Shown piece by piece: positions 14,328-27,767 of a stretch of DNA of 64,000 nucleotides. Every line of letters begins with the position of its first letter. The stretch's first letter is position 1. The translations under genes and the position numbers were made by a program. The notes under the pieces are model-generated. The model was not told where the DNA came from, did no database searches, and was given only the letters and a program-made list of their open reading frames with translations. Source of the DNA: Acidobacteriota bacterium (GTDB lineage Bacteria; Acidobacteriota; Terriglobia; Acidiferrales; UBA7541); contig JAJPIE010000012.1 in the NCBI GenBank assembly GCA_021324935.1, forward strand, positions 248,001-312,000, in the 5' to 3' direction.

Positions 14328-15550
14328 CCTCTCCTCCGCGAGTGGCGCTCTTCTGTGAGACGTTCCACGAAATCAATGGGGTGGCGCTCACCGCACGCCA
14401 ACTGGTGAGCTACGCGCAGCGGCACGATTACCCGTTTCTGGCAATCCACGGCGGCCTGACTCCCGGGGCCTGGGACGATGGCAGCGTTCGCCGGATAGAA
14501 CTCAAGCGCGCTTGGCTCAGCATCGGCATCGAGCGCGACCTGCAGTACGACCTTTTTTTCTGGCGATATCTCAACCGGATACGCAAGGAAGTCCTCCTCT
14601 TCCGGCCGGACATGATTCACATTACAAGTCCCGGCGAGCTGGGCCAGTTGGGCGCCTATCTGTGCCACACGATGAACATTCCTTTGGTGGCATCTTGGCA
14701 CACGAATTTCCACCAATTCGCCGCGCGGCGTCTGCAAAAGGCGCTGGGATTTCTGCCAGGAAAGGTGAGCCGCGGCGCCAGTAGTTGGGTGCAGCTTCAG
14801 GGGCTGCGCGTGCAACTCTGGTTTTACGGGTTGGCAAAAGTGACCCTGGCGCCCACGCTGCCGCAAGTGGAATGGCTGGAAAAGATACTCCATCGCCCGT
14901 GTTTTCTGATGTCGCGGGGAGTGGACTGCGAGCAGTTCAATCCTGTTCGCAGGACACAGCATGATGCGGTTCTGCGCATCGGCTTTGTCGGCCGGGTGAC
15001 ACCAGAAAAGGGAGTGAGGCTCCTCGCCAAAATCGAGCCAGCTCTCGAATCCGCGGGAATCCAGAACTTCCGAATTGTCATTGTCGGGGCCGGCAGCGAA
15101 GTCCACTGGCTAAAGAAGCGGCTACGCCACGGCGAGTTTACTGGCGTGCTTCGCGGCGGCGATCTGTCGCGCGCTTACGCGAACATGGATCTGTTCGCGT
15201 TCCCCTCTCGCACGGACACCTTTGGAAACGTCGTCCAGGAAGCCGCCGCCTCGGGCGTGCCTGCCGTCGTAACGAACGAAGGCGGACCAAAGCATCTGGT
15301 TGTACAGGGAGAGACAGGTTTAATCGCCGAGACCGACGAGGAGTTTGTAGCCGGCGTTGTCGATCTCGCACGCGACTCGGAACGCCTGAAGAAAATGGGT
15401 GCTGCCGCGCGACACCGGGTTCTGTGTGCATCCTGGGACAAGGTCTTCGACCAAGTTCATCTCGCCTACCAGTACTGTCTCCAGGGTGCGAACGCCGCTG
15501 CGCCCTTACACGAAGCGCTGGTCACTAAACAAGAAGCACAAGCCCGTTGA
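14324..15550 (+). CDS. GT4-family glycosyltransferase
   Basis: Retaining glycosyltransferase with the GT-B fold, similar in layout to PimB/MgtA-type mannosyltransferases. The N-terminal domain has ALFCETFHEINGVA and WHTNFHQFAARR. The donor-binding half has GRVTPEKGVRLL and the E-x7-E region FPSRTDTFGNVVQEAAASG. The ATG at 14324 has GAAGGAGG just upstream and overlaps the PHP stop; a longer in-frame reading from 14102 lies entirely inside the PHP gene and is rejected. It probably transfers a sugar to a lipid or glycan acceptor. Confidence 0.88.
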   Translation: MTSPPRVALFCETFHEINGVALTARQLVSYAQRHDYPFLAIHGGLTPGAWDDGSVRRIELKRAWLSIGIERDLQYDLFFWRYLNRIRKEVLLFRPDMIHITSPGELGQLGAYLCHTMNIPLVASWHTNFHQFAARRLQKALGFLPGKVSRGASSWVQLQGLRVQLWFYGLAKVTLAPTLPQVEWLEKILHRPCFLMSRGVDCEQFNPVRRTQHDAVLRIGFVGRVTPEKGVRLLAKIEPALESAGIQNFRIVIVGAGSEVHWLKKRLRHGEFTGVLRGGDLSRAYANMDLFAFPSRTDTFGNVVQEAAASGVPAVVTNEGGPKHLVVQGETGLIAETDEEFVAGVVDLARDSERLKKMGAAARHRVLCASWDKVFDQVHLAYQYCLQGANAAAPLHEALVTKQEAQAR

Positions 15551-15562
15551 ATCCGGGTTCTT

Positions 15563-17074
15563 CTATTGTTCCCGAACCGGGATCTCGCCGGCATGAAATT
15601 CCGTCCACGGCCCTGCAACCATATCGCGCAGGTACTCTTCCTGCCAGGCGTAATCGGAATGCGCTGCCAGGAACGGCTTGGCGTGAAAGTCTTCCCCGCA
15701 AGGATGGCCCATGCGCGCAACCAGGCGAAGTTGCTGCGCCATCGTGGAATCCGTAGCCTTGCCCTGCACGGCGCCGCCGGGATAGTTCGGTCCCCATGTC
15801 CAGATCGCTACGCCGCGGGGAGAAGCATCCACGTGGCCGCAGAGCGTCCGTTCGTTCGCTTCTTCCTTTTTCTGATACGAATCGAAGTGATCCCCGAGCA
15901 GCTTTTCGGCAAGCTCCACGTCCAATTTCCCTCTGTTTTCGTTCAGCAATTCTTCCCAGCGCACACGGCGCGCGTTCGGAGAAGTCTCCATGTCATTGGG
16001 GTTGAACTGCGGCGTGTCTTCCTTGATCACCTTTGGATCGCGGGCCCAGTTGGAGCCGGCAAAAACGCCATCTTTCGTGCGCCACAGCTTGTAGGCCTTC
16101 AGGCCCAGTTCCAATTGCGCGATTTCATTCGTCTTGCGGTCACCCAGCAGCCAATCGTTGGCGTAGCCTCCGTTATTCCCATCCAGCATAATTTTTGTGT
16201 ATTCGTCGATGGAACCGGCATATTGCAGCGCCTTTCGTGCGCGGACGAACTCTGCTTTGCCGTTGGGGTCCCAGCCTTCAAACTGGGAAATCGTCGTTTC
16301 GGTGACCATGAGCCCGTCGCTGTTGATGCCGAAATCGTCGTCACTGGCGATGACACCCGGAAAACCATCCATAAGCATCCGGTAGCCGCTCTTTGGCACG
16401 ATGTCGAAAATAATCCTCCAGCGCTCGCCGTTCATATAGCTGGTCCAGTTATTGTGGGCGATCACGATCTTCCCGTCTTTCGTCCAGCTCCCCGTGGCCA
16501 CGAACGCGCTGCAATTTCCGGGGCTCTTCAGATTTGGCGCGTTGGGCGTTTTTTGCTGCTTGTCGAGCCACGGCACGTAGTAGTCCGGCAGTTCCTCGAA
16601 TGCATTGAATGCCACGAGGTCGTAAACGTCGAGCTTCGAGCCAGTGCGCGCGTTCAAACCCTCGGCGATACCTTGCAATTCCTGTTTGTACTCCTCGTCT
16701 ATCTTCGGCCACAGCATTTCCCGCGCGGCCTGGCGAAAAAATGACCAATCGCGCTTCGTGGAGTGCATCATGCCGGCGCTGACTGCCGGGAAGGCATCCT
16801 CTATCTCAGGCGCCAGCAGAAACCCGTGTTGAAATCCGATCGCTTCAGGGGAGCCTTCCAGATGGAGGTATACCCAGCCGCCCTGTTCATAGCGGTACGC
16901 GCCCTTCAGGCGCGGATCATTCGAAGCGGCGCGCTCGCGGGCGTACGCAAGCGTGGCTTCCCGGTCGTTCTTGGCATTTTCGGCATCATTCGTCGAGCGG
17001 CCAACGGCCCACAAAAGTCCCGTGCCCAGCAGCAGCACACTGAGAGCGACAATCCGACGCAGTCCATCCGACAT
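15563..17074 (-). CDS. Exported C45-type / phospholipase B-like Ntn hydrolase
   Basis: A 503-residue protein with an N-terminal signal anchor (RIVALSVLLLGTGLLWAVG). It has the features of autoprocessed N-terminal-nucleophile hydrolases: GFQHGFLLAPEI near residue 80, and the conserved GNCSAFVATGSWTKDGKIV, where the Cys after GN would become the new N-terminal nucleophile after self-cleavage. HNNW and MLMDGFPGVIASDDDFGINSDG follow as in the family. It likely hydrolyses an amide or lipid ester in the periplasm. ATG preceded by GGAG supports the start. Convergent with the GT4 gene, 12 bp apart. Confidence 0.78.
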   Translation of the reverse strand: MSDGLRRIVALSVLLLGTGLLWAVGRSTNDAENAKNDREATLAYARERAASNDPRLKGAYRYEQGGWVYLHLEGSPEAIGFQHGFLLAPEIEDAFPAVSAGMMHSTKRDWSFFRQAAREMLWPKIDEEYKQELQGIAEGLNARTGSKLDVYDLVAFNAFEELPDYYVPWLDKQQKTPNAPNLKSPGNCSAFVATGSWTKDGKIVIAHNNWTSYMNGERWRIIFDIVPKSGYRMLMDGFPGVIASDDDFGINSDGLMVTETTISQFEGWDPNGKAEFVRARKALQYAGSIDEYTKIMLDGNNGGYANDWLLGDRKTNEIAQLELGLKAYKLWRTKDGVFAGSNWARDPKVIKEDTPQFNPNDMETSPNARRVRWEELLNENRGKLDVELAEKLLGDHFDSYQKKEEANERTLCGHVDASPRGVAIWTWGPNYPGGAVQGKATDSTMAQQLRLVARMGHPCGEDFHAKPFLAAHSDYAWQEEYLRDMVAGPWTEFHAGEIPVREQ

Positions 17075-17221
17075 GAAGACTTTCTCCTTAACTGCTTATA
17101 CCCGGCAGGTGTAGTGCATTCACCCCTAAGAATATATAAGTTCCCGCATGGAAGGTGAATATGTCCTCGCCGCGCCCAAGTCCGGGTGGCCACCGCACGG
17201 CGACTTTGGTAAATTCGGAAA

Positions 17222-17992
17222 ATGCTGACGGCCATCACACGTGCGGTAAGTTCTTGCCTGGCGAATTGCGAACTCAGCTTCATCGAACGAAAACCCATTG
17301 ATCTTGAGAAAGCCCGGGCGCAACATCACGCCTACGAAAGAGCGCTGGAGAAACTCGGGGCGAAGGTTATTTCCTTGCCGGAGGAGCCTGATCTGCCGGA
17401 CTCCATGTTCGTTGAGGACCCAGCCCTCGTTCTGGACGAAATCGCGATCATTTGCACGCTGGGCACGGAAACACGCCGTAGGGAAGCGCCTTCGCTTGCC
17501 GCCGAACTCCAGCGCCATCGCAAACTTGCCTACATCAAACTTCCCGGGACACTCGAGGGTGGAGATGTCCTTCGCATCGGGCGCAAGATATTCGTGGGCC
17601 TGACCGCGCGGACGAATGCCGAGGGCATTCGCCAGCTGGCTGTGATCGTCGAGCACTTTGGCTACGACGTGACCGCGGTTCCGGTAACGGGCTGCCTTCA
17701 TCTGAAATCGGCGGTCACCTATCTAGGAAAAAATGTTTTGCTTGGAAATCGCGCTTGGTTCAATTGGAAGCGCTTTGCAGGGTTTGACTGGGTTGATGTG
17801 GACCCATCCGAGCCGCACGCGGGGAATGTTCTGCTGATCGGCGAAACACTCCTTTTTCCCGCTTCCTTCCCGAAGACCCGCGCGCGCATCGAAGCCCGCG
17901 GATTTCACGTGGAATCGCTCGACATTTCCGAACTGCAAAAAGCCGAATCGGCTCTGACTTGCTCCAGTCTTTTATTTGATTCTTCCTGCTGA
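17222..17992 (+). CDS. Dimethylarginine dimethylaminohydrolase-like amidinotransferase-fold hydrolase
   Basis: Member of the guanidino-group modifying enzymes (pentein fold), most like DDAH, which converts N-omega-methylated arginine to citrulline. Motifs: DSMFVEDPAL, LEGGDVLRIG, the catalytic His in GCLHLKSAVTYL and the catalytic Cys near the C-terminus in ALTCSSLLF. The length of 256 aa is typical. It stands alone, with no arginine pathway gene beside it. A strong hairpin terminator follows the stop. Confidence 0.88.
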   Translation: MLTAITRAVSSCLANCELSFIERKPIDLEKARAQHHAYERALEKLGAKVISLPEEPDLPDSMFVEDPALVLDEIAIICTLGTETRRREAPSLAAELQRHRKLAYIKLPGTLEGGDVLRIGRKIFVGLTARTNAEGIRQLAVIVEHFGYDVTAVPVTGCLHLKSAVTYLGKNVLLGNRAWFNWKRFAGFDWVDVDPSEPHAGNVLLIGETLLFPASFPKTRARIEARGFHVESLDISELQKAESALTCSSLLFDSSC

Positions 17993-18035
17993 AAAATTGC
18001 GGCCGCTTCTCGGGGAAGCGGCCGCCTTGGTTTTT
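17992..18035. terminator. Bidirectional rho-independent terminator
   Basis: Perfect 11-bp stem GCGGCCGCTTC / GAAGCGGCCGC (17999-18009 with 18015-18025), 5-base loop. On the plus strand it is followed by CTTGGTTTTT; on the minus strand the flank gives TTTTT as well. It therefore serves both the DDAH-like gene and the convergent lipoprotein gene. Confidence 0.88.
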
Positions 18036-18054
18036 ATCGGCTGGTTTCGGAGGG

Positions 18055-19470
18055 TCAGTTGGGCAGTTCTTCCACGCTGAATGCCAGGAAGATCGGCGAA
18101 CCGGTGTTGGTCTTGAGGATCAAGCCCACCACGCGCAGATTCAACGGCGTATTCCCCGTCAAATCCTGAATGCTGTTCAATCCACCGAGGAATCTTGTGA
18201 ACGGCGTTACCTGCACCGTCACCGGCCCTTCAAACAGAACGCCCGCGAGCCCGTTGGAATTGAACTGGAAGGTTTCGGCGGAAGTGTTGGTCTGTCCGAC
18301 CACGAGCGTGCCCGTGTGTCCGGAATGGCGCAGCACCACGCGCTTCACCGTAACCTGCCCATTGTTGAAGGGCCCGGCGATGCTCACATGCTGCCCGGGA
18401 ACCAGCCCCGTCGAGTTAAAGAGGAAGCTTCCCCAGTTGTTATGCCACCAGTGAATAAAATACTTTTCGTTCCCGGTGAGATTGATTGTGGAAATCTGGC
18501 CGGAATTGAAGCCCGTGCCAGAGGGCAAGACGCTTCGAACATACATGTCGAAGTCGTTGGCGGTTCCAACCGGAGGATCCACGTAAGTCACCAGGCCCCC
18601 GGCCCAGAATTTATCCTGCGACTCGATCGCCACCGTGTCGGCAAGAATTGCAGCCGAAGTGCGGTCCAGCGTGCCCGAGATTTCCACGATCGAGGAACTC
18701 GTCAGATCGTTGATCGATTCGTTGCCTTCCCACTCCGTCTGCTGGTTCACATTAACCGTGAATTGGTGGCCGTGCGGGCCCTGAATCACAAATGAATTTC
18801 CGCCAGCGTTCACGCTGACAACCCCGGCGTCGAATTCATCGATGTAGGCGTCCGCATCCGAAGGCGTAATAACCTTCAGATCCAGTGTTGGCGTGATGGC
18901 ACCCGTGATCTGGCCATTGGCGTCCACGGCAACGGACTTGCGGATGTCGAATTCAAAGCGCAGGCCATCGATATCTCCAGCGGAAACGACGAGCGGATTC
19001 GCCAGGTTAACCGTCACCGTGGAAGTTGTGAGACTGAGTTGCGGGTTCGAACTCGGACTGCTGTCGAGCGTGCTGATGGTCGGATGCGTCGGAGGATTGG
19101 TTTGCGGATTCGTTACGTTCAGGTAGTCGATGGCGGGATTTGCCAGGGTCACCGTCGCTTGCGTGTATGTCCCCGTAGGGATCGTGTTGATGTCGAGTAA
19201 CGTGCGCAGGCCATTCAACCGGGCGAAGTCCACCGTCTGAGTTCCGTTCAAGACGGAAACTGGCGTGCCAGACCCGTCGGAAAGCGTCAAGCCGGTGATG
19301 TCCACCCGGAAACCAACGACGCTGGGCAAGGGCGCATCGGTCCCCGTGACGAACACGGAATTCGATTGTGGCGTGGTCGTGCTGCTACCGCTGGAACTGT
19401 TGCCGCAACCGGCGAGCAGGGCAACCAGGGCGAGGGCTGAAAAGACGCTAAACCACTTCTTGCGATACAT
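18055..19470 (-). CDS. Lipoprotein with DUF4382- and DUF5666-like domains
   Basis: A 471-residue secreted lipoprotein: signal sequence with lipobox LLAGC (Cys about 22) and a Ser/Thr-rich linker. A DUF4382-like domain follows (VFVTGTDAPLPSVVGFRVDITGL to about residue 210), then repeated beta-rich segments of the DUF5666 kind (GNSFVIQGPHGHQFTVNVN). Function unknown; probably outer-membrane or cell-surface attached. GGGAG eight bases before the ATG supports the start. Divergent from the asd leader region, with about 260 bp between them. Confidence 0.78.
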   Translation of the reverse strand: MYRKKWFSVFSALALVALLAGCGNSSSGSSTTTPQSNSVFVTGTDAPLPSVVGFRVDITGLTLSDGSGTPVSVLNGTQTVDFARLNGLRTLLDINTIPTGTYTQATVTLANPAIDYLNVTNPQTNPPTHPTISTLDSSPSSNPQLSLTTSTVTVNLANPLVVSAGDIDGLRFEFDIRKSVAVDANGQITGAITPTLDLKVITPSDADAYIDEFDAGVVSVNAGGNSFVIQGPHGHQFTVNVNQQTEWEGNESINDLTSSSIVEISGTLDRTSAAILADTVAIESQDKFWAGGLVTYVDPPVGTANDFDMYVRSVLPSGTGFNSGQISTINLTGNEKYFIHWWHNNWGSFLFNSTGLVPGQHVSIAGPFNNGQVTVKRVVLRHSGHTGTLVVGQTNTSAETFQFNSNGLAGVLFEGPVTVQVTPFTRFLGGLNSIQDLTGNTPLNLRVVGLILKTNTGSPIFLAFSVEELPN

Positions 19471-19715
19471 AAATCTATCTCCCTTTTGGCTTTTGAAAAT
19501 CCCCGGAGGCTGCGAAAGCCTCCCCGTCCCTTGGGGTCAATAAACCCGTTGCAATGGCGAAAGTTGCAAGACTTAACTCTTTTATTTCTATCTTGTTATG
19601 GAGACAGTTGTAGTACCATTCTGAAACTAGGATGAATTCGGGCACTTCTCCAATTTGACTTTCGGCACACCCCTCATCGAATTCAATAAAGTGCTCTCTG
19701 AATCCCCAGACCTCG

Positions 19716-19724
19716 TGTTATCTT
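19716..19724 (+). promoter_or_regulatory. Possible extended -10 promoter of the asd leader
   Basis: TGT followed by TATCTT (19716-19724) resembles an extended -10 element. Transcription would begin near 19731, the A of the leader ATG. That would make the leader mRNA leaderless and would explain why no Shine-Dalgarno precedes the leader peptide. The -35 region is poor, so this is tentative. Confidence 0.35.
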
Positions 19725-19730
19725 GAAAAA

Positions 19731-19844
19731 ATGCTGGCCAACGGATCGAAGCGAACTGCTAGTGTGACGAAGCAGTCCACCACGACGACTACCACTCACA
19801 CGATTTACACTACGCGCGCTTCGGGCGACGGGAGAAACAGCTAG
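19731..19844 (+). CDS. Threonine-rich attenuator leader peptide, 37 aa
   Basis: An ORF of 37 codons with 11 Thr codons; nine of the twelve residues 17-28 (TTTTTTHTIYTT) are Thr. It lies upstream of asd and is followed by RNA segments that can form mutually exclusive hairpins and an intrinsic terminator. This is the arrangement known from the thr leader peptide of enteric bacteria, where ribosome stalling at Thr codons prevents termination. The composition and position make chance unlikely. No Shine-Dalgarno is seen. The peptide itself probably has no function beyond being translated. Confidence 0.82.
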   Translation: MLANGSKRTASVTKQSTTTTTTHTIYTTRASGDGRNS

Positions 19845-19896
19845 CCAGCCAGGGAAAGTTCCCAACCCACCCCCGAAGCGAACCGGGCGGTGGGTT
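19747..19896 (+). promoter_or_regulatory. Threonine attenuator of asd: mutually exclusive RNA segments 1-4
   Basis: Segment 1 (19747-19753, CGAAGCG) is complementary to segment 2 (19817-19823, CGCTTCG). Segment 2 (19817-19825, CGCTTCGGG) is also complementary over nine bases to segment 3 (19872-19880, CCCGAAGCG). Segment 3 pairs with segment 4 in the terminator. Segments 1 and 3 share the exact 10-mer CGAAGCGAAC. A ribosome stalled in the Thr run (19779-19802) leaves segment 2 free to form the 2:3 antiterminator. One that reaches the stop at 19842 covers segment 2 and lets the terminator form. Confidence 0.8.
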
Positions 19897-19900
19897 TTTT
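19864..19900 (+). terminator. Attenuator terminator upstream of asd
   Basis: AACCCACC (19864-19871) pairs with GGTGGGTT (19889-19896). An inner stem CCCG/CGGG (19872-19875 with 19884-19887) encloses an 8-base loop, with one bulged C. The T6 run at 19895-19900 follows. It begins 19 bases after the leader stop codon. Confidence 0.88.
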
Positions 19901-19953
19901 CGTTTCACACCCCTCCCGAGAGACTCCGGCGGATAAAACGAGGAGCCGAAAAA

Positions 19954-20025
19954 ATGAGTCTGGAAATGCCGCAACAAGTCACGACGCACGAGCTTCCACT
20001 TTCTCTTTGTGGAGGTGGGCTATGA
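19954..20025 (+). CDS. Small ORF, 23 aa, coupled to asd
   Basis: Between the attenuator terminator and asd, GAGGAG is followed after eight bases by ATG and a 23-codon ORF (begins MSLEMPQQVTTHELPL). Its TGA overlaps the asd start as ATGA, so ribosomes finishing it could restart on asd. The Shine-Dalgarno and exact overlap argue for translation; the peptide has no recognised motif. It may be a translational-coupling device rather than a functional peptide. Confidence 0.5.
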   Translation: MSLEMPQQVTTHELPLSLCGGGL

Positions 20026-21134
20026 GCCGCAGGGATGGCAAGAAATGGCGCGCTGGCGTTCTGGGTGCGACCGGTATGGTCGGCCAGCGCCTGGTTAAGC
20101 TGCTTGCCGATCATCCTTGGTTTGAACTGACCGGCGTGGCAGCATCAGAGCGCTCAACGGGCAAAACGTACGCTGATGCTGTGCGCTGGCATCTGGAAGG
20201 CCCAATTCCTGAAGAAGCGCGCAAACTCGTCGTAAAGGATCTGGAGCCGACTCTCGATTGCGATTTTGTTTTTTCGGCGCTCGATTCTTCTGTTGCTGGA
20301 AAGACCGAGGAAGACTTTGCCCGCGCGGGGTACCCGGTGCTGAGCAATTCCAAGAATCACCGCATGGATCCCGATGTCCCGCTGCTGATTCCGGAAGTGA
20401 ATGCCTCCCACGCGGAGGCGATTCGCGTGCAACGCAAGAATCGTGGCTACGACACGGGCTTCATTGTCACTAATCCGAACTGTTCAACGGCCGGGCTCGT
20501 CCTGGTGCTAAAACCGCTTGCAGACGTTTTCGGGCTGGAAAAAATCTTCGTCGTCACCTTACAGGCCCTGTCTGGTGCCGGCTATCCGGGAGTTCCTTCC
20601 CTGGACATTCTCGGGAATGTGGTTCCGTTCATCAGCGGCGAAGAAGAAAAGATGGAAGCGGAGCCGCAAAAGCTGCTTGGCAAGTGGGACGGCTCGCGGT
20701 TCATTGATGCCGGCCTTGGCATCAGCGCCCACTGCAATCGTGTACCCGTCGTGGACGGCCATTTGGAATGTGCGTCCGTCCGCCTCAAGAAAACTGCAAC
20801 GCTCGACGAAGTTCGCGAAGCGCTCCGCTCTTTCGAAGTTTCGCCGGAGCTTGCATCTTTGCCCACCGGCCTGAAGCATCCGATTGTCGTACAGAATGAA
20901 GACGACCGGCCACAGCCGCGCAAGGATGCCAATACCGGCCACGGGATGGCCGCGGTTGTCGGTCGCGTGCGCGAATGCCCCCTGTTGGATGTGAAGCTGA
21001 CGCTGCTCTCGCACAACCTGGTACGCGGCGCGGCCGGCGCGGCTCTCCTGAATGCCGAACTTCTTGCCGCGCGTGGTTACTTGAAGGCTCGCATCTCTAA
21101 TAACGCGCGCAACGCCGAGCCGGTAACTCGCTAA
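20022..21134 (+). CDS. asd: Aspartate-semialdehyde dehydrogenase
   Basis: Reduces aspartyl phosphate to aspartate semialdehyde with NADPH, the branch-point precursor of threonine, methionine, lysine and diaminopimelate. GVLGATGMVGQRL is the nucleotide-binding loop, the catalytic Cys is in VTNPNCSTAG, and the base region is HCNRVPVVDGH. The 370-aa sequence resembles the archaeal/fungal-type enzyme more than the E. coli type. The ATG at 20022 is chosen because GGAGGTG lies a few bases upstream; an in-frame extension into the leader is rejected. Expression appears controlled by the threonine attenuator upstream. Confidence 0.93.
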   Translation: MSRRDGKKWRAGVLGATGMVGQRLVKLLADHPWFELTGVAASERSTGKTYADAVRWHLEGPIPEEARKLVVKDLEPTLDCDFVFSALDSSVAGKTEEDFARAGYPVLSNSKNHRMDPDVPLLIPEVNASHAEAIRVQRKNRGYDTGFIVTNPNCSTAGLVLVLKPLADVFGLEKIFVVTLQALSGAGYPGVPSLDILGNVVPFISGEEEKMEAEPQKLLGKWDGSRFIDAGLGISAHCNRVPVVDGHLECASVRLKKTATLDEVREALRSFEVSPELASLPTGLKHPIVVQNEDDRPQPRKDANTGHGMAAVVGRVRECPLLDVKLTLLSHNLVRGAAGAALLNAELLAARGYLKARISNNARNAEPVTR

Positions 21135-21143
21135 ATCGGCAGG

Positions 21144-22097
21144 CTAAGGCACGAAATAATACCGCACCAGGTGGAAGAAAATCGGCGCGGCGAAACACAG
21201 GGAATCGATGCGATCGAGAATGCCGCCATGCCCCTCGATCACCACGCCAAAATCCTTGATGCCGATGTCGCGCTTGATCGCGCTCATCACTAGTCCGCCA
21301 GCAAACCCCAGAATGCAGATCGTGAACGACATGGCGGCGGATTGTACTGGCGTAAATGGCGTCACCCACCACAAAGCGGTGCCGAGTGCCGTTGCCGTGG
21401 CCACGCCGCCGAGGAAACCTTCCCAGGTTTTGTTGGGGCTGACTCGCCAGGCGATCTTGTGCTTGCCAATCAACTTGCCCCAGACGTACTGCAGCACGTC
21501 GCTCATCTGATCCACGATCACCAGGTAGAGCAACAGCCGCGCATCGTGGCCCGCGAAACCTGGAATCTTCAGTAACAGAAGTGCCGGTGCGTGACTCAGG
21601 CAATATACGCAAACCATCAGCCCAAATTGAATTTTAGCGGCGCGCTCGAGAAAATGCTCCGTATCGCCGTAAATTGCGATACTCGATGGAATGAAAATAA
21701 ACGCCAGCACCGGAATCATGATGGCAAAAAAGCCATACCATTGGATGCTGACCAGGTAATACTGCAGCGGCATTATAACGAAAAAACTCCAGAACAGCGT
21801 GCGATGATCACCGCGGCGCGTAGGCACCAGTGTCATGTACTCGCGCATCGCCATAAACGATATCAGGCCAAACAGGCTCAACGTTCCATCAGGGCCAACC
21901 AGCAAAGAAACCGCGAAAACCGCGCACATCTTCCACCAGGCCCGGATTCTCGCCGTCAGGTTGTTGATCGTTGGGCGGCTGGCATCGTTCCGATGGCGCT
22001 CTTTCAGAATGTCGCCAATGAAACTCGCTATGACCAGCAGAAAAAGCACTCCGCCAAAGAGCCACATGAGTTTCGGATCGTGAATGGCATGCAGCAT
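21144..22097 (-). CDS. CdsA-family phosphatidate cytidylyltransferase
   Basis: Integral membrane enzyme making CDP-diacylglycerol from phosphatidate and CTP. The protein has about eight hydrophobic segments and the family signature in the C-terminal half: SPNKTWEGFLGG, then SAIKRDIGIKDFG and GHGGILDRIDSL, with the metal-binding Asp residues intact. The ATG at 22097 overlaps the stop of the acyltransferase gene (TGATG), so it is the third cistron of an overlapping operon. A longer reading from 22139 lies inside the upstream gene. The set resembles the E. coli ynbA-ynbB arrangement rather than housekeeping cdsA (inference). Confidence 0.88.
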   Translation of the reverse strand: MLHAIHDPKLMWLFGGVLFLLVIASFIGDILKERHRNDASRPTINNLTARIRAWWKMCAVFAVSLLVGPDGTLSLFGLISFMAMREYMTLVPTRRGDHRTLFWSFFVIMPLQYYLVSIQWYGFFAIMIPVLAFIFIPSSIAIYGDTEHFLERAAKIQFGLMVCVYCLSHAPALLLLKIPGFAGHDARLLLYLVIVDQMSDVLQYVWGKLIGKHKIAWRVSPNKTWEGFLGGVATATALGTALWWVTPFTPVQSAAMSFTICILGFAGGLVMSAIKRDIGIKDFGVVIEGHGGILDRIDSLCFAAPIFFHLVRYYFVP

Positions 22098-22756
22098 CAG
22101 GCCGGCCCAATCCGCCGCAGAGTACTGACAGCTTCCCACGCGCGCTCCAGAAAAACATTCTTCTCTTCCCGGGGTTCTACCTGGATGGGCTTTCCGAACG
22201 TCAGCAGGCTGAGCATTGGGACGGGAAGAATTTCCCCTTTGGGCAGGATGCGGTTCATATTTTCCAGATAAGCGGGAACCAGCTCCACGTCCGGCCGCCG
22301 AAGCGCCAGATGGTACAGCCCCGACCGGAATTCTCCTACCTTTTCCCCGGTTCCACGCGTCCCCTCCGGAAACAGAATCAGCGAATTCGTCTTGCCGAGT
22401 GCCGCAGCCATTTCTTCAATCAGTGAACGACTCACGAATTTCGCCTCTTCCGGAGATTGCGCTTTTGAGATGGCCCCACGTTCCACCAACACCGCTTTGA
22501 AGACATTTTCTGCCAGATACCTGCGCAACCAGGATTCTTCCCAATAATCCTTAGCAGCAATTGGCCGCGTACGGGCGCGAATGTAAGAGGGCAGCGCCGA
22601 CCACAACACCACGAAATCCAAGTGGCTGGTGTGATTCGCAAAATAGATCCGCTGACGCTCGCTGGGCTCGCAGCCCGCCCATTGCACCTGCACGCCGCTG
22701 ATTCCGCGCGCGACAGCCGCCAGAAGGCTGGCGATGGGATGGATGCCTTCGCTCAT
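22097..22756 (-). CDS. PlsC-like 1-acylglycerol-3-phosphate acyltransferase
   Basis: Acylates a lysophospholipid-type acceptor at the membrane. The acyltransferase block I FANHTSHLDF (H-x4-D) and block III LFPEGTRGTGE are both present, and the late block VPAYLENM is recognisable. At 219 aa it is short but complete. It overlaps the upstream CDP-alcohol phosphatidyltransferase gene by ATGA (22753-22756) and the downstream CdsA-like gene, so the three are almost certainly one transcript with coupled translation. Confidence 0.87.
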   Translation of the reverse strand: MSEGIHPIASLLAAVARGISGVQVQWAGCEPSERQRIYFANHTSHLDFVVLWSALPSYIRARTRPIAAKDYWEESWLRRYLAENVFKAVLVERGAISKAQSPEEAKFVSRSLIEEMAAALGKTNSLILFPEGTRGTGEKVGEFRSGLYHLALRRPDVELVPAYLENMNRILPKGEILPVPMLSLLTFGKPIQVEPREEKNVFLERAWEAVSTLRRIGPA

Positions 22757-23370
22757 GAATGATTTTTGCCCTGAAGTTCGCGGAGAGCGCCGCTCGCCCG
22801 ATTAAAAACTGTGATACCCAGCAGGAGCACGACAATCCACAGCGCGGGACGGAGTACCGCAAAGATTGGCAAATTGCAGCCAAGAAGCAGTCCCAAAAGT
22901 CCGAAAACAAAGGCGCGGTCGCTTTTTCCCATCGGCCCGTCATAGCGGCGAGACGCTCCAATTTGCACGCCAAGCACTCCGGTCATTTCGCTGATGGTCG
23001 CCAGCAGGACGATTGCCACGATGGCCACTCGATCAAACGGAAGAAGAAAGGCCAGCGGCAAGTACAAGCCCGCGTCCGAAAGCACATCTCCCAATTCGTT
23101 CAGAATCGCACCTAAGGGAGTCTTTTGGTTGTGCTCACGCGCGAGCATCCCGTCGATGGCATTCAGCCCCATTCGGACCACTAGCACCAGAGGAAGCAAT
23201 AGCAGAACTCGCCGATCCCGAACGAAGTAAAGCATCCCACCCGTGGCGAAGGACAGCCCCAGAGCAGCCAGCGTCACATGATTGGCCGTAACGCCCGCAC
23301 GGGCCAGGCCGTTCGTGATGGGTCGCAGTAAATTCTGAAATTTCGGCTTCAGGTCGTAGACGCTGGGCAT
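22753..23370 (-). CDS. CDP-alcohol phosphatidyltransferase
   Basis: Membrane enzyme transferring a phosphatidyl group from CDP-diacylglycerol to a small alcohol. The defining motif D-G-x2-A-R-x8-G-x3-D-x3-D is complete, beginning DGMLAREHNQ and ending ELGDVLSD (about residues 73-99). About six hydrophobic segments are present in 205 aa. The head-group acceptor cannot be told. It is the first gene of the three-gene phospholipid operon; the ATG is at 23370. Confidence 0.87.
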   Translation of the reverse strand: MPSVYDLKPKFQNLLRPITNGLARAGVTANHVTLAALGLSFATGGMLYFVRDRRVLLLLPLVLVVRMGLNAIDGMLAREHNQKTPLGAILNELGDVLSDAGLYLPLAFLLPFDRVAIVAIVLLATISEMTGVLGVQIGASRRYDGPMGKSDRAFVFGLLGLLLGCNLPIFAVLRPALWIVVLLLGITVFNRASGALRELQGKNHS

Positions 23371-23428
23371 GGAGTTGCAGACATCGTAACCGCAATTTAC
23401 CTATCAGGGGAATCGCGAAAAACAACCG

Positions 23429-24088
23429 CTAGGTGATGCTTTCGGCGTGCAGATCGCGGCCTTCGGCATATTTTTCCAGCAGGCTGGACGTGCGGCGGCA
23501 CCAGGCGTCGAGCGGCTGCGGTCCGCCAAAGGAGATCAGGATCGCTGCCACTTGCTCCGTGGCGGGAGTTACCATCGTTCGCTCGGAATCGCTGGTGGGA
23601 CTTCCATGCGGGCCCGCAGCGTCTGAAAAGACAGGCAAGTCTTCCAGGTTCAGATCGTACTTTCCAATCCCCTTATACGTTTCTCCTTTTTTTCCCGCGC
23701 GAAACACGATATCGCCTTGCACGTGCCCCAAGTCATAAAGCCCGATCGGCAAGCGGCTCTCCACGGAAACCAGATTGATGATGTCCACAACGCAATTCAC
23801 ATTCGGAAAATGCTTGCCGCTCACCAGCCGGCGTAGCAGCGCTTCGGCCGAACCGCGATATCGCGCCGGATCTTTGCCCAGCGCGCGGTACCCGGCGCGC
23901 GTTGCGGAAATAGCCGGAGCATCCAGCAGTGCCCGCGGATCGACACTCTTCAGGATTGTCGCCTCACAGTTGTACATTTCGCCCAACAACTCCAGCGGCG
24001 AGTCCGTCGTCCGCACATGTGCGGTTACCACCCCAAGCGCGACGGAAGGACATTTCTTCTTCAATGCCGGGTCGATGGAGACCTTCAT
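23429..24088 (-). CDS. B3/B4 domain protein (PheRS beta editing-domain-like)
   Basis: A 219-residue free-standing protein resembling the B3/B4 editing module of phenylalanyl-tRNA synthetase beta. Features include the central VNCVVDIINLVSVESRLPIGLYDL and the following GDIVFRAGKKGETYKGIGK, as in other stand-alone members. Such proteins may hydrolyse mischarged aminoacyl-tRNA or bind a small aromatic ligand. The ATG at 24088 overlaps the stop of the tryptophanase gene (ATGA, 24085-24088), a tight coupling that suggests a shared substrate, possibly an aromatic amino acid. That link is inference. Confidence 0.8.
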   Translation of the reverse strand: MKVSIDPALKKKCPSVALGVVTAHVRTTDSPLELLGEMYNCEATILKSVDPRALLDAPAISATRAGYRALGKDPARYRGSAEALLRRLVSGKHFPNVNCVVDIINLVSVESRLPIGLYDLGHVQGDIVFRAGKKGETYKGIGKYDLNLEDLPVFSDAAGPHGSPTSDSERTMVTPATEQVAAILISFGGPQPLDAWCRRTSSLLEKYAEGRDLHAESIT

Positions 24089-25449
24089 GCCCGGATGCCC
24101 CGAGGCTTCAGGCGCGCCGTGAAGTGTCGCAGGAACGCCGCTTGATGGACCAGATCGTAGCCGGGAATCGTGTCACGGCGCCGCCAAACGTCCAGAATCA
24201 CCTCGACGACATATTCAATGTGGCTTTGCGTGTAAACCCGGCGCGGAATCGCCAGGCGAACCAGGTCCATCTGCGCATGCTCGCCGAACATCAAGCTGCC
24301 GATTTCCACGGAGCGAATTCCACCTTCCAAAAACAATTCATTCGCCAGCGCCACGCCTGGAAATTGCGACGTGGGAATGTGCGGAAGAAACGCTCGTGCA
24401 TCAAGATAGATAGCATGCCCGCCGGGCGGCTGGACAATCGGCACACCCTCGGCCGAAATGTGATTCCCCAGGAATGCCGTCGATGCGATGCGGTATTGCA
24501 GGTAGTCTTCCTCCAGCGCCTCGTTGAGGCCGACGGCGATCGCTTCCAGATCGCGGCCCGCCAATCCCCCATACGTCGGGAATCCTTCCGTCAAAATCAG
24601 CAGGTCCTTTTCCTGCTGTGCGATCGAATCATCGTTGGTGCAAAGGAAGCCCCCGATGTTCGCCAGGCCATCTTTCTTGGCGGACATGGTGCATCCGTCC
24701 CCGTAAGAAAAGAGCTCCTGTGCAATCTCCCGGGGAGTCTTCCTTGCATAGCCCGGCTCGCGCAACTTGATAAAGTACGCATTTTCCGCAAACCGGCATG
24801 CGTCAATATACAAGGGAATGCCGTGCTTCTTGCAAATTCCTTTCACTGCGCGGATATTCGCCATGGAAACCGGCTGGCCACCGCCGGAATTATTGGTCAC
24901 CGTGAGCATCACCAAAGGTACCCTTTTCGCCCCTTCGCGCTCGATGAGTTCTGCAAGGCGCGCCGTATCCATGTTTCCCTTGAAGGGATGATTCAGCGAA
25001 GGTTGTTTTGCTTCGGGCACCGGCAAATCGACAGCCTGCGCACCCACAAATTCACAATTGGCCCGGGTTGTGTCGAAGTGCGTATTGTTCGGGACAATGT
25101 CGCCTCTCTTGCACATCACGCTGAACAGAATGCGCTCCGCTGCGCGTCCCTGATGCGTGGGAATCACATGCTTGAATCCAAAGATACTTTGCACCGAGTT
25201 CCGGAACCTCGCAAAACTCGGTGACCCGGCGTAGGACTCATCTCCTCTCATCATCGCCGCCCACTGTTCCGTGGACATCGCTGAGGTTCCCGAATCCGTC
25301 AAGAGGTCTATCAATATGGCGTCGGAGGGAACCAGGAACAGGTTGTATCCCGCGGTTTCAATCAGCTTCTGGCGTTCTTCCCGAGTCGACGCGCGGATCG
25401 GCTCGACACTCTTGATGCGAAACGGCTCAATAATCGGACGTTTGGACAT
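24085..25449 (-). CDS. tnaA: Tryptophanase (tryptophan indole-lyase)
   Basis: PLP-dependent beta-eliminating lyase converting tryptophan to indole, pyruvate and ammonia. The PLP-lysine region is YGDGCTMSAKKDGLANIGG. The substrate-binding NNSGGGQPVS and the PLP-anchoring YIDACRFAENAYFI are intact. The C-terminus AAFLRHFTARLKPR has His where tryptophanases have it (His463 in E. coli), rather than the Phe of tyrosine phenol-lyases, favouring tryptophanase. Full length at 454 aa. I looked for a TnaC-like leader in the 150 bp upstream and found none convincing. Translationally coupled to the B3/B4 gene downstream. Confidence 0.92.
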   Translation of the reverse strand: MSKRPIIEPFRIKSVEPIRASTREERQKLIETAGYNLFLVPSDAILIDLLTDSGTSAMSTEQWAAMMRGDESYAGSPSFARFRNSVQSIFGFKHVIPTHQGRAAERILFSVMCKRGDIVPNNTHFDTTRANCEFVGAQAVDLPVPEAKQPSLNHPFKGNMDTARLAELIEREGAKRVPLVMLTVTNNSGGGQPVSMANIRAVKGICKKHGIPLYIDACRFAENAYFIKLREPGYARKTPREIAQELFSYGDGCTMSAKKDGLANIGGFLCTNDDSIAQQEKDLLILTEGFPTYGGLAGRDLEAIAVGLNEALEEDYLQYRIASTAFLGNHISAEGVPIVQPPGGHAIYLDARAFLPHIPTSQFPGVALANELFLEGGIRSVEIGSLMFGEHAQMDLVRLAIPRRVYTQSHIEYVVEVILDVWRRRDTIPGYDLVHQAAFLRHFTARLKPRGIRA

Positions 25450-25556
25450 TCGGCAGGAAATCTCTCCTTGCAGACACTACCACAACTTGAAGAAACCATA
25501 GCGTGCCTGAACGGGAAGATCTGGCGGCGATTGGCATGGCGGGAACGTCAGATTTG

Positions 25557-25589
25557 AAAAAAAGAAAGGGACGCTGTCATCTGCGTCCC
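25557..25589 (-). terminator. Rho-independent terminator after the multiheme cytochrome gene
   Basis: On the minus strand GGGACGC (25589-25583) pairs with GCGTCCC (25574-25568) around an 8-base loop, followed by TTTCTTTTTTT. It begins 19 bp after the cytochrome stop and separates the cytochrome transcript from tnaA. Confidence 0.85.
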
Positions 25590-25607
25590 TCCGCATTGGA
25601 CTTCGAA

Positions 25608-27767
25608 TCAATCGTCGCCGTGGGCTGGCTCCGGAGCATGGCCCTCAGCGCCGGATTCCTCCGGTGTTTCCACCAAGCCCGCCTTCACCAGTTGCCGGTA
25701 ATAGGCAGGGCGTGTGTGCCGATAGTGGTCGGCGGAAATCTTGCCGTCCAGCCAGGCGGTATCCATTGGGTAGACCATTGGATCGAAGATCACCAGGTAA
25801 AAGTGCCAAATCAGGATGGCAAAGGTGGCGAGGATGGCCTCGTACCAGTGCACTGCCGTAGCCGCGTCCGCCACCCACTTCGGGAAATGACGCAGCGTGA
25901 AATTGTTGAACCACAGCAGGAAGCCGGAAGCGGCCATGACTAGGGTCCCCCACATGAAGGCCAGATATTCCATTTTCTCCGCGTAGTTGAACTTCGAGAA
26001 TTTCGGCTCTTTTTCCGAGAGACCGAGGTTGTAGAGCAATACATCCACGATGTCTGTGGCATCCTTCATGGTCGGAATCATCGACCAGATAAACGACCGG
26101 TCGCGTTTCCTGATAAGCAGATGCAACGCGTGGTAGAGGGTCGCCGCAATCATCACCACCGCCGCAACGCGATGCAGGCCGCCACGCACGCCTGCGTTGG
26201 CTTCCCATGCGAACAACGGTCTTGCCCACCAACTCTCCGGGTATCTCAGCGCGAAGCCGGTTACCACCAGCGTTGGGAAGCTGGCCATGATTCCCCAGTG
26301 CGCCACGCGGAACCACAAATTCATGCGCATCACAATTTCGCCCGATTCATGCCTCGGCCGGCGCCGGATCAGCTTGCTAAGCAGATCCAGCAGATTGTGC
26401 AGTAGCATGAAGCCCAGCGTTGCGGGGATCAGGACCCAATACGTCCAGCGGATCCACTTCACCACCGGATGATTTGGGCCCGTGCTCGTTTGCACGTGGA
26501 TCGGTCCGATGGCATAGTCCGCCTTGTCCGCGCCCCTATGGCATTGACCGCAGGTCTTTGCCAGATTCGCTGCATTCACCATCGAGCGTGGGTCCGCGGA
26601 TTTGAAGATGTTGTGGACCCCATGACACGACGCACAATTCGCCGCCGTCAACTTGCCGCCCTTCAGCGCCAGCCCGTGATAGCTGTCCGCGTACGAAGGC
26701 ACGCGGTCGCTCGGCAAGTCGTACAACCTCGCCATGCGGGCGCTTCCGTGGCAGCGGCCGCAGGTTTCCGATGAGACGTTCGCCGCGTTCACCGGAGAGT
26801 TGGGATTCTTCGGTTCCAGGATCAGGTGTTCGCCATGGCAGTCCACGCAAACCGGCGCATCTTTAACGCCGGCACGAACCGCTTCGCCGTGAACGCTCTG
26901 CTGGTAAGTGTTTGCAATCTCTTTATGGCAGGTGCCGCAGGTGTTCGCAACTTTCCAATGGTTTACATGGGATCGCGAATCCATTGCCGGATATATGTCG
27001 TGATTGCCGTGACAGTCGTTGCACTTCGCCGCTTTCGTATCGCCGGCCGCCACCGCTTGTCCGTGGACGCTTTGCTTGTAGGAATCCACTGGATGCGCAA
27101 TGGGAATCTCGTGCCGCGACAAAAAGCCCGCGTCACTGTGGCATTTCGCGCACGTGTCTGGAAGGCGCTTCGCGGAAACCGCGGAGTCAGCATCATCCGC
27201 CGGTTTCACCCCGTGAATGGAGCCGTGGCACGACTCGCAAGTCGGCGCGTCCGGATCGCCTCTCTTTGCCGCTTGGCCGTGGATGCTGTCGGCAAACTGC
27301 TTTACTTCATCGGCATGGCATTCTTCGCATTTCGCCGGCGCTAGCTTCTCCGTGCTGGTCAATTCGTGGACGTTCCCGTGACACGAGGCGCAAGCCGTTT
27401 CGCCGAGCATCGCATGCACGCTCGTGCCAAATGCCTTCTCCTCGTCGCTATGGCACGTGGCACATTCCACTTTTGCAATCTTGGCCGGGTGCGGAAATTC
27501 CTTGATGGAAGTGTGGCAATCCGTGCATCCCAAAACGCCATGAGCGCTGGCGGCGTGCTTTGCGGGATTCACCGAAATGTCCCGGCCTTTTTCGGACTTC
27601 ATTCCTGCGGTGCGATGGCATGCCAGGCACGCTTCCTCTTTTTTCGGTGCTGAAGCGGCTTTCTCTTTGGTGGCAGCATGGGTGGGAGCGAGCACCCATA
27701 CCAGCGCGATTAGCAAGCCGGGCAAATTCCATGTCCGGCCTTGCCGCTCCGCTCGTTTGGAGCTCAT
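25608..27767 (-). CDS. Thirteen-heme cytochrome c fused to a membrane cytochrome b domain
   Basis: Predicted quinone-linked redox protein. After a signal peptide (about 1-31), residues 45 to 430 carry 13 CxxCH motifs, starting ACLACH and ending TCGQCH, many with CHGxxH contexts typical of stacked bis-His hemes. The last 260 residues contain five membrane segments with paired His (for example FRVAHWG, LHRVAAVV, LYHALHLL, AVHWYEA, LIWHFYL), like the cytochrome b of formate dehydrogenase or thiosulfate reductase. It could pass electrons between the quinone pool and periplasmic acceptors; the direction is not shown. Followed 40 bp upstream by the NapC-like gene in the same orientation. Confidence 0.85.
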   Translation of the reverse strand: MSSKRAERQGRTWNLPGLLIALVWVLAPTHAATKEKAASAPKKEEACLACHRTAGMKSEKGRDISVNPAKHAASAHGVLGCTDCHTSIKEFPHPAKIAKVECATCHSDEEKAFGTSVHAMLGETACASCHGNVHELTSTEKLAPAKCEECHADEVKQFADSIHGQAAKRGDPDAPTCESCHGSIHGVKPADDADSAVSAKRLPDTCAKCHSDAGFLSRHEIPIAHPVDSYKQSVHGQAVAAGDTKAAKCNDCHGNHDIYPAMDSRSHVNHWKVANTCGTCHKEIANTYQQSVHGEAVRAGVKDAPVCVDCHGEHLILEPKNPNSPVNAANVSSETCGRCHGSARMARLYDLPSDRVPSYADSYHGLALKGGKLTAANCASCHGVHNIFKSADPRSMVNAANLAKTCGQCHRGADKADYAIGPIHVQTSTGPNHPVVKWIRWTYWVLIPATLGFMLLHNLLDLLSKLIRRRPRHESGEIVMRMNLWFRVAHWGIMASFPTLVVTGFALRYPESWWARPLFAWEANAGVRGGLHRVAAVVMIAATLYHALHLLIRKRDRSFIWSMIPTMKDATDIVDVLLYNLGLSEKEPKFSKFNYAEKMEYLAFMWGTLVMAASGFLLWFNNFTLRHFPKWVADAATAVHWYEAILATFAILIWHFYLVIFDPMVYPMDTAWLDGKISADHYRHTRPAYYRQLVKAGLVETPEESGAEGHAPEPAHGDD

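Follow-up and report, generated by a model that had tools for sequence, protein, structure and literature searches.

Leader-peptide attenuation is a textbook mechanism in Proteobacteria and is known in Actinobacteria and Firmicutes. The thrL leader of the enteric thrABC operon combines a Thr-rich leader peptide with an alternative antiterminator and an intrinsic terminator, and controls an early part of the aspartate pathway. In mycobacteria, polycysteine leaders serve sulfur genes, and some actinobacterial leader peptides are leaderless. The ilvBNC operon of Corynebacterium glutamicum has an actinobacterial attenuator of the leader-peptide type (PMC11857589), and premature terminators were predicted genome-wide in the 5' regions of many phyla by Naville and Gautheret in 2010 (PMC2965389), the attenuators of Acidobacteriota being almost entirely unannotated (PMC2965389). 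For this phylum, among the commonest in soil, searches of the open literature yielded no description of a leader-peptide attenuator; the leader reported here is a well-supported instance of an already known mechanism.

The window (the whole stretch of 64,000 nucleotides analysed here) comes from a metagenome-derived genome of 4.5 Mb, fragmented and 91% complete, whose assignment to the Acidobacteriota, suspected in the original prediction, was confirmed; its nearest named relatives include 'Candidatus Acidiferrum typicum'. Like thrL (Rfam RF00506, Thr_leader), the leader found in this window is Thr-rich, opposes an antiterminator to a terminator and precedes a gene acting early in the aspartate pathway, and like the predictions of Naville and Gautheret it is a 5' region holding a premature terminator. 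The leader peptide ORF (19731-19844, + strand as for all features below unless indicated) has 37 codons and encodes MLANGSKRTASVTKQSTTTTTTHTIYTTRASGDGRNS (peptides are given up to the stop codon); its nine threonines at residues 17-28 were re-derived, and they occupy nine of the 12 codons at 19779-19814. Only one stop-to-stop segment of the window holds at least nine Thr in 12 residues, and 30 random 64-kb sequences matched to its dinucleotide statistics held none. An extended -10 promoter element of the form TGnTAnnnT (TGTTATCTT, 19716-19724) ends 6 nt 5' of the leader ATG, and the same element lies 6-12 nt upstream of the start codon in 27/27 homologous leaders, so that translation probably starts at or near the RNA 5' end; this arrangement predicts a leaderless or near-leaderless leader transcript.

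The proposed switch is made of segments with competing partners. Segment 1, the putative protector CGAAGCGAAC (19747-19756), pairs over 7 bp with segment 2, CGCTTCGGG (19817-19825), which covers the leader codons Arg-Ala-Ser-Gly, and segment 2 can alternatively form a 9-bp antiterminator with segment 3, CCCGAAGCGAAC (19872-19883), which comprises the top of the terminator 5' arm and the loop. The intrinsic terminator (19864-19900) is a 12-bp hairpin (19864-19896) with a T-run at 19895-19900. These pairings had been predicted from the start and proved correct when checked base by base: 19817-19825 and 19872-19880 are exact reverse complements over 9 bp, the first 7 bases of segment 2 pair with 19747-19753, the 10-mer CGAAGCGAAC is present both at 19747-19756 and at 19874-19883, and the 12-bp terminator with T6 is formed by 19864-19875 and 19884-19896 with C19888 bulged, the first two T's of T6 being base-paired in the computed fold. 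Thr codons are found together with 2:3 and 3:4 helices that exclude each other, the logic of the enteric thr leader. Folding of the whole leader was more favourable than that of dinucleotide shuffles (z -2.2), 4/200 of which were equally good.

Switching was modelled by folding the RNA left free 3' of a ribosome placed codon by codon, with a crude footprint. When the ribosome was stalled at codon 24 or earlier, the 2:3 pairing reached a probability of at least 0.9 from a free length of 19880 and mostly persisted to about 19892, by which point the polymerase would be at or past the T-run; at codon 25 the pairing weakened, and from codon 27 onward it was impossible and 3:4 formed. The switch point between codons 24 and 27 is sharp, stalling before it freeing segment 2 and passage blocking it, and of the nine Thr codons in the run, the seven at stall-permissive positions, 17-22 and 24, are therefore usefully placed. 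The proposal that stalling in the Thr run frees segment 2 stands for these seven, whereas a ribosome at codon 27 or 28 blocks it. A ribosome halted at the stop codon, which had been expected to mask segment 2, barely reaches it, and the switch also requires ribosome passage and renewed 1:2 pairing. In the full transcript at equilibrium the terminator 3:4 beats the antiterminator 2:3, so the switch must be kinetic and depend on the order of synthesis, as classical attenuators likewise do. In the absence of a ribosome, the 1:2 pairing has a probability of 0.95 in the full transcript, and 2:3 is favoured over 1:2 before segment 4 is synthesised. Of all parts of the attenuator model the putative 1:2 protector is the weakest, because this pairing is just 5 bp in many relatives and in silico loses to 2:3 until segment 4 has been made.

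The course of events would be as follows. Transcription would begin at the leader ATG or a few bases upstream, with a ribosome following the polymerase. Under scarcity of charged Thr-tRNA, this ribosome would stall within the Thr run at codons 17-24 and leave segment 2 free to pair with the emerging segment 3, which would prevent the terminator from forming until the polymerase had passed the T-run, and asd would be transcribed. With plentiful Thr-tRNA, the ribosome would cross segment 2, 3:4 would pair and transcription would stop near 19900. An ORF rich in codons for an amino acid of the pathway lies upstream of the gene, an intrinsic terminator lies between this ORF and the structural gene, and in silico the stall site is placed to free segment 2; by these features of the attenuator class the locus is very likely a ribosome-mediated transcription attenuator responding to Thr-tRNA supply, which would raise asd when threonine is short. 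The analysis shows the anatomy, the conservation, the repeated loss of lysC, the in-silico switch point and the covariation of the corresponding helix in paralogues; the tRNA response and early termination in the cell are inferred.

A covariance model (R1) was built from lysC/asd leaders, 27 of which form the alignment A1. With this model, a homologous leader was found to precede lysC-asd or asd in 34/36 congeneric genomes, the two genomes without a match being 63% and 77% complete. The near-leaderless promoter, the frame, the Thr enrichment, the segments and the terminator are shared by the congeners, and this conservation of the whole leader is the decisive argument against chance. Frame and Thr enrichment recur in all 27 aligned homologues, with Thr at about one third of leader body codons, so that the expected conservation of the Thr run is seen as an enrichment, mixed with Ser in the relatives. 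Start and stop of the ORF are near-fixed and its indels frame-preserving; codon-position bias, sought in the leader substitutions as proof of translation, was not found, and it is from the conserved frame that we infer leader translation. Frame and composition are kept and no one peptide is, the pattern that a sensor ORF should show.

In the same 27 leaders, segments 2, 3 and 4 are near-invariant, and in segment 1 GCG is invariant (27/27) and AAGCG present in 25/27 homologues. Cells of the 2:3 helix (neighbouring 5-bp helix included) are paired in 94.1% of cases vs 25-50% with slid partners, those of 3:4 in 98.6% vs 30-58%, and those of 1:2 in 79.2% vs 31-48%. The Ala codon within segment 2 is GCT in 28/28, whereas G, C and T all occur as the third base of the following Ser codon, a position left unpaired in most homologues; this difference is a finer sign of RNA-level selection. 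No covariation of 1:2, 2:3 or 3:4 was detected within the lysC/asd leaders, whose pairings hardly vary and are too conserved to be informative; the covariation anticipated in the original prediction was found instead in the 2:3 helix of paralogous leaders with Cys codons.

These paralogues emerged from weak R1 matches, which are further attenuators with other codons. A rhodanese gene is headed by leaders such as MSMFTQKSALLCICCMCCMRVSSGAERLSS, and others with Cys codons precede CysD, a sulfite/nitrite reductase, a sulfonate-type binding protein, cobA and a TauE-type exporter (target gene names taken from reading translations). In the Cys set (alignment A3), 7 cells of the 2:3 helix are changed on both sides, and the covariation score and the number of double-changed cells were reached by 0/500 shuffles, which ignore relatedness, slid controls agreeing; the covarying bases include terminator-loop positions without a terminator partner. 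Model R2, built from Cys leaders alone, detects those of lysC with E values of 1e-5 to 1e-11, which points to a shared core, the segment 2 Ser-Gly motif (CTTCTGGCG-like) facing a CGCCAGAAG-like motif in the terminator; it also matches in other families of the class, single-contig genomes included. Leaders with Phe, Tyr and Trp codons (MIRNAYSYWFRFWVPPK) precede DAHP synthase (NCBIfam PRK08673) in most congeners (L291-L305 are further examples), apparently attenuating the first aromatic step in response to three amino acids. The window genome carries Thr, Cys and aromatic attenuators: its Cys leader MRTSCQICCCCEAVCCCCRQTRSGQRCFRT (G000:C16:48040-48157, - strand, locus L192) lies before a sulfite/nitrite reductase-like gene and has many Cys-type paralogues upstream of sulfur genes across the genus, and its aromatic leader (L318) lies before DAHP synthase. 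The asd leader is a member of a same-genome family in which the sensed amino acid is changed to suit the pathway. At four loci (L202, L163, L165 and L205), Cys-type attenuators stand before TonB-receptor-like or other genes with no obvious sulfur link, and at L146 (G051) a Cys/Met/Thr leader is followed by a sulfite/nitrite reductase-like gene and then asd, an odd sulfur-aspartate pairing. In one of the other families matched by R2, a second aspartokinase is headed by a Thr/Ile leader at L238 (G237; MASFRPTQMAMCMPCTISGIGTRITTTSRTTKGGGGF) and L284 (G150; ending in TSTITTTTITGAHGG), these being the only Thr-rich leaders among 21 other upstream regions; class-wide, none was found upstream of the main ACT-bearing aspartokinase (0/29 loci, with a filter that may miss bulged hairpins).

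The sole gene now placed under the leader is asd (aspartate-semialdehyde dehydrogenase, TIGR00978-type, 20022-21134), the gene 3' of it being cdsA-like and on the opposite strand. The asd start at 19890 given by a mechanical ORF list is unlikely, as it falls inside the terminator, and the start was set at 20022. Immediately upstream lies a lysC remnant of 23 codons (MSLEMPQQVTTHELPLSLCGGGL, 19954-20025), whose stop overlaps the asd start codon; in the relatives L003 and L014 the stop of lysC overlaps the asd start as ATGA. In near relatives the Thr-rich leader is followed by lysC and then directly by asd. On the other side of the leader, a DUF4382/DUF5666 protein gene (18055-19470, - strand) is located between a dimethylargininase-like gene (17222-17992) and the leader, and it is the dimethylargininase-like gene that directly adjoins the leader in L003 and L014. 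Aspartokinase occurs in the genus in two forms, one complete with ACT domains (e.g. L111) and one short, operon-borne and limited to the kinase domain. The short one is missing from the window genome (G000), G015 and G031, which retain the ACT-bearing one, and in these three the leader is directly upstream of asd.

Since the window genome is fragmented and incomplete, lysC might actually be present between leader and asd and the junction be an assembly artefact. The same loss is found, however, in two other genomes with different junctions: 23 codons join the lysC start and end in G000, the lysC C-terminus alone remains in G015, and the lysC start is fused in frame to asd in G031. Well-supported branches of the asd tree force three separate changes, and the ACT-less kinase is absent elsewhere in all three genomes, the ACT-bearing one being present. 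An assembly accident is therefore very unlikely and, as judged from these sequences, the asd-alone arrangement is derived, with at least three independent losses of lysC. Control of asd alone, as first proposed, holds in the window genome but arose later: the original target of the switch was lysC-asd, as in the relatives, and lysC has been deleted here with asd remaining. Retention of leader and asd through three losses of lysC is a natural experiment, and suggests a benefit in keeping asd by itself under control. Elsewhere in the family, in a second genus (G047, G048, G050), attenuators with mixed Thr, Ile, Met and Cys codons lie directly 5' of asd.

Two further readings concern what the leader senses. 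It could be a constitutive or RNA-only terminator-antiterminator, operated by a ligand or protein, in which the Thr codons arise incidentally from an unstructured A/C-rich spacer. Such a spacer does need to be unstructured and the substitutions show no codon-position bias, but the in-frame indels, the near-fixed start and stop, a promoter sited for immediate translation start and codons that differ among paralogues according to the pathway all argue against it. An Rfam scan of window positions 15000-26000 gave no riboswitch or leader family at E up to 1, RF00506 included, and no leader family matched in the relatives checked. The RNA-only reading is therefore held to be unlikely. Threonine as the signal, on the other hand, is true of the window, whereas the stall-permissive codons of relatives are a mixture (Thr 42%, Ser 27%, Ile 9%, Lys 8%, Met 7%). 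More than one amino acid of the aspartate family may therefore be sensed. The leader would then read the charging of Thr, Ile, Lys and Met tRNAs, threonine dominating only in the window species. These four account for 66% of stall-permissive positions in 27 relatives, and the codon mix of the DAHP synthase leaders (Phe, Tyr, Trp) suggests that leaders at the first enzymes of branched pathways name every end product; against this, Ser, with 27% of permissive positions, is outside the aspartate family, AAG, ATT and ATG may serve RNA needs, and Lys and Ile are often too near segment 2 to help. We regard sensing of several amino acids as a real possibility whose chances fall a little below even, and attenuation by Thr-tRNA supply remains the preferred reading for the window. 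More speculatively, attenuation at the head of lysC-asd may in this clade stand in for allosteric feedback on an operon aspartokinase from which the ACT domains have been lost, through a leader reading multiple aspartate-family amino acids and belonging to a lineage-specific family with one antiterminator design whose codons are exchanged by pathway (Thr/Ile/Lys/Met, Cys, Phe/Tyr/Trp); this broader proposal is tentative and somewhat doubtful as a whole. The family offers a practical key to amino-acid regulation in uncultured soil bacteria.

Several features separate this leader from thrL, to which it showed no match in sequence or by covariance model. It precedes asd, and those of relatives lysC-asd, whereas thrL precedes thrABC; its mRNA is probably near-leaderless and its segment 1 repeats segment 3; and its antiterminator uses the terminator loop and the upper 5' arm. 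With the attenuators of Actinobacteria it shares leader peptides with pathway codons and polycysteine leaders at sulfur genes, a likeness of design across different phyla and with no sequence relation known. Compared with those systems, the Thr, Cys and aromatic versions found here have one antiterminator design in common, and a core motif can be detected in both the Thr and the Cys ones.
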